This document shows, one piece after another, positions 8,077 through 11,661 of a DNA stretch of 64,000 nt (position 1 is the first letter of the stretch; every line of letters starts with the position of its first letter). The stretch is from Sphingobium jiangsuense (GTDB lineage: Bacteria > Pseudomonadota > Alphaproteobacteria > Sphingomonadales > Sphingomonadaceae), in the NCBI RefSeq assembly GCF_014196495.1, contig NZ_JACIDT010000001.1:372001-436000 (forward strand). The letters run 5' to 3'. A program made the translations under genes and the position numbers. The notes beneath the pieces are model-generated. The model worked only from the letters and a program-made list of their open reading frames with translations, was not told the DNA's origin and searched no databases.

Positions 8077-9339
8077 TCAGTCCTGAAGAAAATCCGGCAC
8101 GCGCTCGGCGGCGATGATCGAGGCCGGCTCGATGCGGTCCGCCACCACGGCGAAGCGGTCGCCGTCGACCATCACCTCCGGCACCAGCGGACGGCTGTTA
8201 TAGGTGCTCGCCATCGTCGCGCCATAGGCGCCCGCGGTGCGGAAGATGCCGAGATCGCCGGAACGCACCACGTCGATGGTGCGGTTCATCGCGAAGGTAT
8301 CCCCGGTCTCGCACACCGGCCCGGCGATATGGGCGACGATCTTCTCGCCGCTGGGCCGCACCGCCTCGAAATCGTGCCAGGCGTCGTACATGGCCGGGCG
8401 GGCGAGGTCGTTCATCGCCGCATCGACGATGACATAAGGATGGGTCACGCCCGGCTTCACCCAGATCACGCGGGTCAGCAGCACGCCCGCATTACCGACG
8501 ATCACCCGGCCCGGCTCGAACATCAGCGTCACGTCCCAGCCCTGCGTGACGCGCTCGACCATCCTGCCATAGTCGGCGGGGGACGGCGGCACCTTGTCGC
8601 GCTCATAGGGCACGCCGAGCCCGCCGCCGAGGTCCACCCGGTCGATGCCATGGCCCTCGCCGCGCAGCTCGCGCACCAGCTCGCCGATGCGGGCATAGGC
8701 CGCCTCCAGCGGGCCGAGGTCGAACAGCTGGCTGCCGATGTGCAGCGCGACGCCGCGCAGGTTGAGGCCGGGGCGGCCCGACAGCCGCGCGAAGATCGCC
8801 TTCGCCTCGCTGATCGGCACGCCGAACTTGTTCTCCGACTTGCCGGTCGAAATCTTCGCATGGGTGCCCGCATCGACATTCGGGTTGACGCGCAGCACCG
8901 CCGAGGCGGTCTTGCCTGCCGCATGGGCGAGGTCGGCCAGCACCGCACCTTCCTCCTCCAGCTCCAGATTGAACTGGCCGATGCCCATGTCGAGGCCATA
9001 TTGCAGTTCGGCCCGCGTCTTGCCGACGCCGGAAAAGACGATGTCCTCCGCCTTCATCCCCGCCGCCAGCGCACGGGCGATCTCTCCGCCCGACACCACG
9101 TCCGCGCCGAAGCCCTGGCGGGCCAGCACCTTCAGCACCGCGAGATTGGGGTTCGCCTTGATCGCGAAGGCGATATGCTTGCGCGGCAGGCCGGACAACG
9201 CCTCGCGGAACACCTGCGCATGACGCTCCAGCGTCGCGCGGGAATAGATGTAGACGGGCGTGCCGACCGCCTCGGCGATCGCCGTCAGCGGCACATTCTC
9301 GGCGTGCAGCACGCCGTCGCGATAGGTGAAATGGTCCAT
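8077..9339 (-). CDS. lysA: Diaminopimelate decarboxylase
   Basis: LysA decarboxylates meso-diaminopimelate to L-lysine. The 420-residue protein shows the PLP-lysine motif HIAFAIKANPN (about residue 60), GGEIARAL, the glycine-rich phosphate loop VDLGGGLGVPY, FEPGRVIVGNAGVLL, and the C-terminal GPVCETGDTF with the conserved catalytic-site Cys. ATG at 9339 is chosen although no strong ribosome binding site precedes it; a TTG ten codons upstream (9369) is the alternative. It is preceded by a small lipoprotein gene and argH on the same strand. Confidence 0.95.
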   Translation of the reverse strand: MDHFTYRDGVLHAENVPLTAIAEAVGTPVYIYSRATLERHAQVFREALSGLPRKHIAFAIKANPNLAVLKVLARQGFGADVVSGGEIARALAAGMKAEDIVFSGVGKTRAELQYGLDMGIGQFNLELEEEGAVLADLAHAAGKTASAVLRVNPNVDAGTHAKISTGKSENKFGVPISEAKAIFARLSGRPGLNLRGVALHIGSQLFDLGPLEAAYARIGELVRELRGEGHGIDRVDLGGGLGVPYERDKVPPSPADYGRMVERVTQGWDVTLMFEPGRVIVGNAGVLLTRVIWVKPGVTHPYVIVDAAMNDLARPAMYDAWHDFEAVRPSGEKIVAHIAGPVCETGDTFAMNRTIDVVRSGDLGIFRTAGAYGATMASTYNSRPLVPEVMVDGDRFAVVADRIEPASIIAAERVPDFLQD

Positions 9340-9372
9340 GGGCGGGTCGTATATCCGATAATCAGGCAAAAT

Positions 9373-9624
9373 TCAGGAAGGCGGCAGGTCGAACGGATCG
9401 TCCGGGCGTTCCTGCGACTGTTTGAGCGGCTCGGCGCTGCGGTCGGGACGGGCCTGCATGTCGTGCTCCATCATCTCCGCCGGGGTGGCGGCCCGGTCCG
9501 CGCCATAGGCGACCGGCGCCGGATCCATGCCCGGCTTCGCCTTCAGCGCCTTGCGCGACCCGCAGGCCGACAGCGCCAGCACCGCGCAGGCCAGCAGCAG
9601 CGCATGGCCGGGCTTCCTCATCAC
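9373..9624 (-). CDS. Small lipoprotein between argH and lysA (LptM/LppL-like position)
   Basis: The 83-residue protein has a lipoprotein signal peptide with the lipobox LSACGS (Cys near residue 21). The polar, proline-rich tail ends in DDPFDLPP. A tiny lipoprotein just upstream of lysA is a widely conserved arrangement, called LppL or LptM in gammaproteobacteria, where LptM helps mature the LPS translocon LptD. The sequence here lacks the usual CGQKGPL motif (it has CGSRKAL), so orthology is inferred from position and type only. Its start overlaps the argH stop by 4 bp. Confidence 0.65.
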
Positions 9625-11036
9625 GTCCGCTCTCCCGCCAGTTCCGCCTTCGAAAGCTCCGTCCGGGCCTGGGCGATGCGCGCGCGCACCTGCGCGGGCG
9701 CGGTGCCGCCATGGCTCATCCGGCTCGCCACCGACGCATCGACCGTCAGCACATCATAAATGCCCTGATGGATACGCGCGTCGATGCCCTGAAGTTCCTC
9801 CAGCGGCAGATCGGCCAGCTGAACGCCCCTGTCCTCGGCCAGCTTCACCGCGCGACCGGTGATATGATGCGCCTCGCGGAACGGCACGTCGGCCTCCCGC
9901 ACCAGCCAGTCGGCGAGGTCGGTCGCGGTGGCGAAGCCGCTTTCGGCGAGCGCGCGCATCCGGTCGGTGCGGAAGGTCACCGTCTCCACCATGCCGGTCA
10001 TCGCCGCGATGGAAAGGCCGAGCAGGTCGTGCGCCTCGAACACCGGCGGCTTGTCGTCCTGCATGTCCTTGGAATAGGCGAGCGGCAAGCCCTTCATCGT
10101 GACGCAGAGCGCCGTCATGCAGCCCATGATGCGCCCGGCATGGCCGCGCACCAGCTCGGCGGCGTCGGGGTTGCGCTTCTGCGGCATGATCGAGCTGCCG
10201 GTCGAATAGGCGTCGGGCAGCTTGACGAAACCGAAAGGCTGGCTCGCCCAGATGATGAATTCCTCCGCGAGGCGCGAGAGGTGGAGCGAGCATTGCGTCG
10301 CCGCCATCAGATAATCGAGCGCGAAGTCGCGGTCGGACACCGAATCGAGGCTGTTGTCGGTCGGCCCGTCGAAACCGAGCGCCGCCGCCGTCATGAAGCG
10401 ATCGGTCGGGAAGCCCGTCCCGGCGAGCGCCGCCGCGCCCAGCGGCGACCTGTTGAGCCGCGCCCGTGCATCGGCGAAGCGCGAACGGTCGCGTTTCAGC
10501 ATCTCATAATAGGCCATCAGATGATGACCGAGCGTCACCGGCTGCGCGCTCTGGAGATGGGTGAAGCCCGGCATCACGCTGTCGGCGTGGCTCTCGGCGC
10601 GGGCGACCAGCGCCGCCTGCAATGCGGCGAGGCCCGCCTGCACCTCGTCGATCGCGTCGCGCACCCAGAGCTTGAAATCGGTCGCGACCTGATCGTTGCG
10701 GCTGCGCGCGGTGTGCAGGCGGCCCGCCGCCGGTCCGATCAGCTCAGCCAGCCGCGACTCGGTGACCATGTGGATATCCTCAAGGTCCATGTTCACCGGA
10801 ACGCCGTTCGCCTCATATTCGGCGGCGACGCGATTGAGCCCCTCGGTGATCGCCTGCGCGTCCTCGCCGCTGACGATCCCCCGCGCGGCGAGCATCGCGA
10901 CATGCGCCTTCGACCCGGCGATATCCTGCTTCCACAGCCGCTTGTCGAAGGGGATGGACGCGTTTATCTCCCGCATCACAGAGGCCGGGCCTTCCGCGAA
11001 GCGCCCGCCCCACATGCTGTTGGAGCCTGCCGTCAT
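9621..11036 (-). CDS. argH: Argininosuccinate lyase
   Basis: ArgH cleaves argininosuccinate to arginine and fumarate, the last step of arginine synthesis. The 471-residue protein begins with [10 protein letters not shown] (residues 8-17), contains [13 protein letters not shown] and the fumarase/ASL signature [12 protein letters not shown] (about residue 285). ATG at 11036 is taken as the start; it overlaps the divergent TlpA-like start codon within a single CATG. A second ATG at 11015 (before WGGRF) is possible and would remove the overlap. It heads a minus-strand operon through the small lipoprotein, lysA, siroheme synthase and the CorA-like gene. Confidence 0.95.
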
Positions 11037-11661
11037 GTCCTGTTCGTCCCGGTCGCTAATCTCTCTGCTCCTGCTGGGGGTCGCTCTGGCCGCCTGCGAT
11101 AAGCAATCCGCGCCGTCCGGGCAAGATAATGCGGCAACATCGGGCGAAGTTACACCCGGCGAGGTCGCCCCGTCCGCGCCCGGCGGCAAGGCGCCCGCCC
11201 CCACTCCGGCCTATGTCATCGACCGTGGCAAGGCGGGGACGGCGCTGCCGGATTTCACATTCCGCGACGACAAGGGCAAGGACGTGACGCTGGAGGCGTT
11301 CGAGGGCAAGCCGATCCTCGTCAACCTCTGGGCGACCTGGTGCGCGCCCTGCGTCGCGGAGATGCCGCAGCTCGACAGGATCGCGGGCGCCCATGCGAAG
11401 GCCGGGTTGCAGGTGCTCACCATCTCGCAGGACATGACCGGCGCGGACAAGGTGCTGCCCTTCTTCGCGGCCAAGGGGTTCCGGCATATCCGCCCGTGGC
11501 TGGACCCGGAAAACCGCTTCGCCTTCCATTATGCGACCGGCCTGCTGCCCACCAGCGTGCTCTATGACGCGCAGGGCAGGGAAGTGGCGCGGGTGACCGG
11601 CGCGCTCGACTGGGAGGGGGAAGAGGCGCGCGCGCTGATCGAGGAGGCGATAGCGGGCTGA
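11035..11661 (+). CDS. TlpA-family thioredoxin-like lipoprotein
   Basis: This 208-residue protein carries a lipoprotein signal peptide ([11 protein letters not shown], Cys near residue 19) and a Gly/Pro/Ala linker. A TlpA/ResA-type thioredoxin fold follows, with [14 protein letters not shown] and the redox motif WCAPC at about residues 102-106. LLPTSVLYD provides the cis-Pro loop. Such membrane-tethered reductases keep periplasmic thiols reduced, often for cytochrome c maturation. GGAG lies 11 nt before the ATG, inside argH. The two divergent genes share two bases of their start codons. Confidence 0.88.

Follow-up and report, generated by a model that had tools for sequence, protein, structure and literature searches.

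In the stretch of 64,000 nucleotides of Sphingobium jiangsuense DNA analysed here (the window), argH and a gene for a TlpA-like lipoprotein (referred to as tlpA) most likely lie head-to-head with overlapping 5′ ends, argH being translated from an ATT codon at 11060, inside tlpA, and the promoters of the two genes being crossed. This reading comes from comparison with relatives, through the reading frame, the Shine-Dalgarno sequence (SD), codon constraint and the lack of canonical starts in some relatives; the use of AUU in the cell, the transcript ends and any mutual regulation are what we infer from it. The original prediction placed the argH start at 11036, within a CATG shared with the lipoprotein gene. 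This placement is probably wrong, since the ATT at 11060 is the best supported start and would leave 26 bp read on both strands instead of two common bases.

Organization of the argH-tlpA region

The predicted argH coding sequence, read from the ATT start, occupies 9621..11060 on the minus strand and encodes 479 residues, its N-terminus being [22 protein letters not shown]; alternative starts of the conventional kind lie at 11036 or 11015 of the same strand. The product is identified as ArgH by its score against TIGR00838 (590.7 bits, cutoff 279.5, the profile being scanned from 11036), and most of the nearest named relatives of the gene come from Sphingobium. A small lipoprotein-like ORF (9373-9624) has a GTG that overlaps the argH stop by 4 nt, at 9621-9624, which suggests translational coupling, and a lysA-like ORF (8077-9369) adjoins this small ORF.

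The plus-strand gene (11035..11661) encodes a TlpA-like thioredoxin-fold lipoprotein of 208 aa. Pfam Redoxin/AhpC-TSA is above cutoff, and the AhpC-TSA/Redoxin domain, a WATWCAPC motif and a LAAC lipobox in the translation place the protein among the TlpA/ResA-like thioredoxin-fold lipoproteins. It scores below the cutoff of the TlpA equivalog (NF047696, 111 bits vs 230). The protein is thus related to TlpA, and is called TlpA-like only.

The CATG at 11034..11037 is present as originally described, and supplies in-frame ATGs to both argH (11036-11034, minus strand) and tlpA (11035-11037, plus strand), with bases 11035-11036 common to both. A second CATG (11013..11016), 21 bp away, also contains an in-frame ATG for each gene: the one at 11015 is the codon before Trp-Gly-Gly (WGG) in argH, an alternative start, and the one at 11014 lies upstream of the tlpA start. 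Therefore, the window sequence alone leaves several start choices.

Loci compared

The argH loci were gathered from genus, family, class and named genomes. Thinning at an ungapped identity below 80% (mean of the argH start region and the tlpA-side region) kept 157 of the 262 family loci, among which some genomes are present twice. There are 210 unique junctions; the tlpA start was called in 201 of them and not in the other nine. Rows L002 and L003 (distant lyases), L090 and L293 (WGG not found) and L296 (truncated) were dropped. The divergent family genomes G080, G090, G100, G102, G128, G136, G144, G145, G158, G165 and G172 were left out, as were the partial hits of G026, G085, G138 and G175. 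As the loci are related, their binomial p values cannot be treated as independent. The thinned set of 77 loci with an ATT/ATC/ATA start was selected by start codon, and the avoidance of ATG is taken from sets not so conditioned. One genome, listed as 86% complete and 7% contaminated, shows two argH hits of the same score on one contig (L285 and L298, G067:C1:41875-43251 and 2850811-2852187), perhaps an assembly repeat.

Conservation of the pair and of the argH frame

A divergent TlpA match is found near argH in 26 of the 27 class loci that could be parsed from the best 30, by score, of 80 matching genomes, indicating that the pair is old. Outside the family, argH of divergent tlpA-argH pairs mostly has ATG/GTG/TTG candidates upstream, unlike the family of the window, and, by eye, there is often a short argH-tlpA gap or a shared CATG. 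Four family argH loci with no TlpA match upstream (L227, L232, L268 and L270) carry an ordinary in-frame ATG upstream of the WGG codon.

The relative phase of argH and tlpA is constant in 253 of the 255 family loci with a TlpA match, and Asn is found at position −2 before WGG in 208 of 210 junctions, being kept, by eye, also where the tlpA SD has moved. A noncoding spacer would need neither the kept frame nor the Asn, so the argH reading frame probably extends through the spacer.

A predicted ATT start for argH

Very few bacterial starts beyond ATG, GTG and TTG have been characterised, and start prediction assumes those three, as described in PMC5472188; an ATT start is of a type for which gene finders do not usually search. 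On the other strand of tlpA, the predicted argH initiation codon, assigned by SD spacing and by comparison, is the ATT at 11058..11060 (minus strand), and 7 nt before it lies AGGAG (11068..11072, minus strand), which is written in the tlpA Leu codons CTC-CTG. Both the predicted start and its SD sit inside the signal-peptide codons of tlpA.

An SD match of 5 nt or more, followed at 6-8 nt by an in-frame ATT/ATC/ATA, is present in 62/157 thinned family loci, and the same motif occurs in 2/157 and 0/157 in the other two frames. The outgroup shows it in 0/37 loci in the argH frame and in 1/37 in each shifted frame, and none of 309 control windows from the argH body contains it. When the SD match is relaxed to 4 nt or more, the figures are 79/157 in frame vs 14 and 2/157 in the other frames (outgroup, 1/37 in each frame). 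Start assignment with this lower threshold gave ATT/ATC/ATA in 77/157 thinned loci, ATG/GTG/TTG in 28/157 and no start in 52/157. A conserved in-frame codon other than ATG/GTG/TTG, accompanied by a strong SD, is thus found, which is the sequence pattern of a non-canonical start. The modelled SD pairing in the window is −7.5 kcal/mol for the ATT, −5.7 for each ATG and −5.6 for tlpA itself; in this model, the energy gap between the ATT and the ATGs is modest.

In a tree of 184 ArgH rows, built by a quick method and having many weak forks, the ATT/ATC/ATA state is found in 91 rows, of which 90 belong to the family, and requires 9 changes vs a shuffled mean of 61.4. It spans Sphingobium, Sphingomonas, Parasphingopyxis and an early-branching group. 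Several Novosphingobium loci, L122, L130, L135, L140, L157 and L160 among them, have TTG 7 nt after AAGGA or AGGA. This is the same SD spacing, so the ATT of the window sits where these relatives have a canonical start; the reading after TTG is Ser-Glu-Arg-Asp in some Novosphingobium, and Ser-Asp-Arg-Asp after the ATT of the window. Other Novosphingobium have an ATG for which the start-assignment rule finds no clear SD.

One genus of the early-branching group bears directly on the choice of start, as three of its five readable genomes have CTG and the other two CTA before WGG. In four of them (G123, G280, G281 and G284) there is no ATG/GTG/TTG within 30 codons upstream, and an SD-N7-ATT/ATC is present; in the remaining one, G282, an ATG is found at −23. 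The ArgH proteins of these genomes share 73-76% identity with the query along almost their whole length, so these argH look like working genes, and G284, a CTA genome, has a listed completeness of 100% over 3 contigs. However, the CTG of three of the five genomes might itself be a weak start, and only the CTA of the other two cannot.

Synonymous constraint on tlpA codons

Since the SD and the start bases lie in tlpA codons, selection on them can be tested through codon choice. The tlpA Leu codon that writes AGGAG is CTC in 87/89 unique junctions and in 57/59 thinned loci, whereas CTC makes up 14% of the other Leu codons among the first 30 of tlpA and 34% in the tlpA body.

The tlpA codon before ATx is also skewed in the 89 junctions. 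When it encodes Val it is GTA (27) or GTG (6), never GTC or GTT, although GTC represents 52% of Val codons in the tlpA body; when it encodes Leu it is CTA (22), CTG (10) or TTG (8), never CTC or CTT. Only two of the 89 codons end in C (both GCC) and two in T, all of them Ala. With CTC or GTC at this place, argH would gain an ATG while TlpA stayed unchanged. In the thinned set picked blind to this codon (n=59), the last base is A in 34, G in 22, T in three and C in none. Synonymous constraint on tlpA thus appears to hold both the argH SD and the codon before ATx.

Three observations qualify this reading. The Ala codons before ATx have no preference for A or G (GCT 2, GCC 2, GCG 1); an A or G before ATx also creates an out-of-frame TAA or TGA on the plus strand; and ATT exceeds ATC by far more than codon usage predicts, a preference that is not accounted for by a start codon alone. 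An ORF on the plus strand that would end at this TAA/TGA was considered and dropped, as no start codon for it was seen by eye in the window and in L012.

The tlpA start and the shared CATG

The start of tlpA at 11035, as originally placed, is supported by an SD, TTGGAG (11020..11025, plus strand), contained within the argH codons for Ser-Asn. The distance from SD to start is 6 or 9 nt in 193/201 unique junctions and a multiple of three in 200/201. A reading of tlpA through the spacer was also considered and is disfavoured, since a stop in the tlpA frame is found in 27/253 loci and, by eye, a TTG start there has no SD.

The tlpA start codon varies widely across the family (ATG in 54, GTG in 73 and TTG in 74 of the 201 unique junctions). 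The base before it is C in 155/201, namely 47/54 of the ATG type, 57/73 of the GTG type and 51/74 of the TTG type; the enrichment of C in the ATG type vs the rest gives a Fisher p = 0.057. An argH-strand ATG overlapping the inferred tlpA start is thus found in only 47/201 unique family junctions, and the argH strand at this place reads mostly ATG, ACG or AAG, complementing the start codon of tlpA. Family-wide selection for an argH ATG at the shared CATG is not convincing in these data. Since the argH strand changes along with a drifting tlpA start codon, the CATG common to both genes in the window is most likely a by-product rather than the argH start, and as a selected feature in the clade of the window it was rejected. 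The original prediction had called for a comparison of this junction across sphingomonads: the signals that it placed inside the neighbouring gene appear to be borne out, and the shared CATG as argH start of the window probably is not. An ACG start for argH at the tlpA junction was rejected too, because other close relatives carry AAG or AAC there. In two loci from two other alphaproteobacterial families (L071 and L089), an argH ATG and a tlpA start candidate with an SD-like sequence share a CATG, so such sharing may arise repeatedly.

Candidate promoters

On the argH strand, a −35 candidate, TTGCCC (11119..11124, minus strand), overlaps the tlpA Gln codon CAA at lipobox +9, and a −10 candidate, TATCGC (11096..11101, minus strand), lies 17 bp from it, with a predicted 5′ end at about 11089. 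For tlpA, the −35 candidate TTGTCG (10942..10947, plus strand) is inside the argH codons for Lys-Asp and the −10 candidate TATCTC (10965..10970, plus strand) is made by a rare argH Ile codon, ATA, the 5′ end being predicted at about 10977. The window thus reads TTG-N17-TATCGC on the argH strand and TTGTCG-N17-TATCTC for tlpA. Both match the housekeeping promoter of Zymomonas described in PMC7566282 (TTGNNN, 17 bp, TANNNN). The same source describes the −10 element of Zymomonas and Caulobacter as having no conserved T at −7, which accounts for the poor fit of the E. coli promoter pattern; a scan of 10500-11600 with the E. coli-type sigma-70 consensus found no promoter.

The codons underneath these candidates are unusual. 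Lipobox +9 is Gln in 139/142 thinned loci with a lipobox and is written CAA in 139/139 of these (expected 0.20). Among the tlpA codons after the lipobox Cys, Asp is GAT in 134/136, Arg is AGG or AGA in 92/92 (expected 0.065) and Gln at +3 is CAA in 84/85. In argH, Ile +16 is ATA in 90/157 thinned loci (expected 0.017), ATT in 38 and ATC in 29, although this means that 67/157 do not have the ATA that makes the TAT of tlpA. Each promoter candidate lies in the coding DNA of the other gene, and the two transcripts are predicted to be complementary over about 113 nt. The claim that the ribosome binding site and promoter of each gene lie inside the coding region of the other thus appears to be right, the skewed codon choices fitting both promoters and SD.

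Alternative readings

Long annotated overlaps with weak starts are often mispredictions (PMC2478687), and three other readings of the junction were weighed. argH could start at the ATG before Trp-Gly-Gly (11015), leaving the AGGAG-ATT unused. The original prediction held that this start would leave less room for the two promoters; the reverse is the case, since a 19-bp gap (11016-11034), which holds the tlpA SD, would separate the two genes. The pre-WGG codon is ATG in 201/210 unique junctions, its SD pairing (−5.7 kcal/mol) is as strong as that of tlpA (−5.6), and no ATG/GTG/TTG is present in the argH frame within 30 codons upstream of it in 79/262 family loci. It is also ATG in 70/77 thinned ATT/ATC/ATA loci, so it could act as a start in most species. 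However, conservation of this ATG is equal with (151/158) and without (50/52) a canonical start within 35 codons upstream, and a start at 11015 leaves unexplained the CTC in 57/59 loci, the bias of the codon before ATx, the kept spacer frame and the Asn at −2. The kept frame, the Asn and the genus whose five readable genomes all carry CTA or CTG in place of this ATG disfavour this start, and we regard it as unlikely. The ATG at 11036, common with the tlpA start, is present in the window and in some near relatives. A start of this type may be used in some other lineages: in L041, an in-frame stop at −10 restricts the choice to the shared ATG, at −6, and the WGG codon, and in L044, L108 and L111, where the rule finds no SD-ATT/ATC/ATA start, Met-Ala-Asp is read from the shared ATG. 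Against its use in the window, the argH-strand ATG at the tlpA start is restricted to 47/201 junctions and tracks the start codon of tlpA, other Sphingobium relatives have ACG, AAG or AAC there, and AGGA is 1 nt from the ATG. For the window, we consider this start very improbable.

The conserved CTC and the A/G bases could instead serve some other DNA or RNA element, for instance a regulator site or a CUCC pairing with GGAG in the tlpA mRNA. Synonymous constraint by itself cannot name the element that it protects, and a pairing of GGAGC with GCTCC looks feasible by eye in the window. Nevertheless, AGGAG is kept in L036 and L039, where the tlpA SD is GGAA, and in L109, where this SD has moved; the pattern is tied to the argH frame at the 7-nt spacing; and some Novosphingobium carry TTG at the position of the ATT, all of which makes such an element a very remote prospect. 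The ATT at 11060 thus remains the preferred argH start.

Proposed functioning and significance

According to the preferred arrangement, tlpA would be translated from the ATG at 11035 with TTGGAG as SD, and argH from the ATT at 11060 with AGGAG as SD, within the signal-peptide codons of tlpA. The argH promoter would be located in the lipobox region of tlpA, and the tlpA promoter in argH codons +16 to +24. The strong SD would offset the weak AUU codon, letting ribosomes start argH; initiation would probably be low and IF3-sensitive, and the two genes may be coupled through their crossed transcription. An AUU/AUC start appears to be kept across Sphingobium, Sphingomonas, Parasphingopyxis and relatives, with AUG avoided even though TlpA would permit it. 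It is tentatively proposed, as a possibility that we hold to be rather doubtful, that the weak start, the strong SD and the crossed promoters act together as one conserved switch, through which the synthesis of arginine is linked with IF3 or growth state and with the redox lipoprotein.

The site pointed out in the original prediction is real and worth attention, most likely for another reason, the conserved AUU/AUC start of argH. Such a start is unusual on a gene for a biosynthetic enzyme, and a family-wide weak start in a housekeeping enzyme, placed inside a signal peptide, tests how selection uses weak starts. The case also illustrates that a hidden start codon can be revealed by constraint on the synonymous codons of the gene that overlaps it. 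If the reading is true, the N-terminus of ArgH is probably misannotated in many sphingomonads.

Comparison with known systems

A literature search found no paper on a divergent argH-tlpA pair or on a non-AUG argH start in Sphingomonas, nor, going by titles and the openings of abstracts, one on reannotated starts in Alphaproteobacteria that deals with this pair, and tlpA and argH do not occur in the main text of the Bradyrhizobium paper on transcription start sites. Excludons are overlapping divergent transcripts. The argH-tlpA pair would resemble them in the predicted complementary 5′ ends of two divergent transcripts, but its overlap is short (about 113 nt), predicted only, and includes a coding overlap with embedded signals.

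Among genes with unusual starts, infC (encoding IF3) begins with ATT or ATC and Streptomyces sigR with GTC, and IF3 represses both, as described in PMC5472188. The predicted argH start would share with them, following the same source, a codon other than ATG/GTG/TTG that is often misannotated. However, argH is a gene for a biosynthetic enzyme, its start would be embedded in a divergent neighbour, and its sensitivity to IF3 is predicted. In the genome of the window, infC (L305, G000:C3:173000-173494) shows by eye AGGAG, 8 nt and ATA, with ATGs four codons later; this ATA may be a second non-AUG start in that genome. The pncA gene of Borrelia (BBE22) is reported to start with AUU (PMC13398362). 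This gene, too, encodes an enzyme, and its AUU start lies upstream of the annotated position, but it is reported from one species, and the abstract of that paper mentions no head-to-head overlap such as the one proposed here for argH and tlpA.
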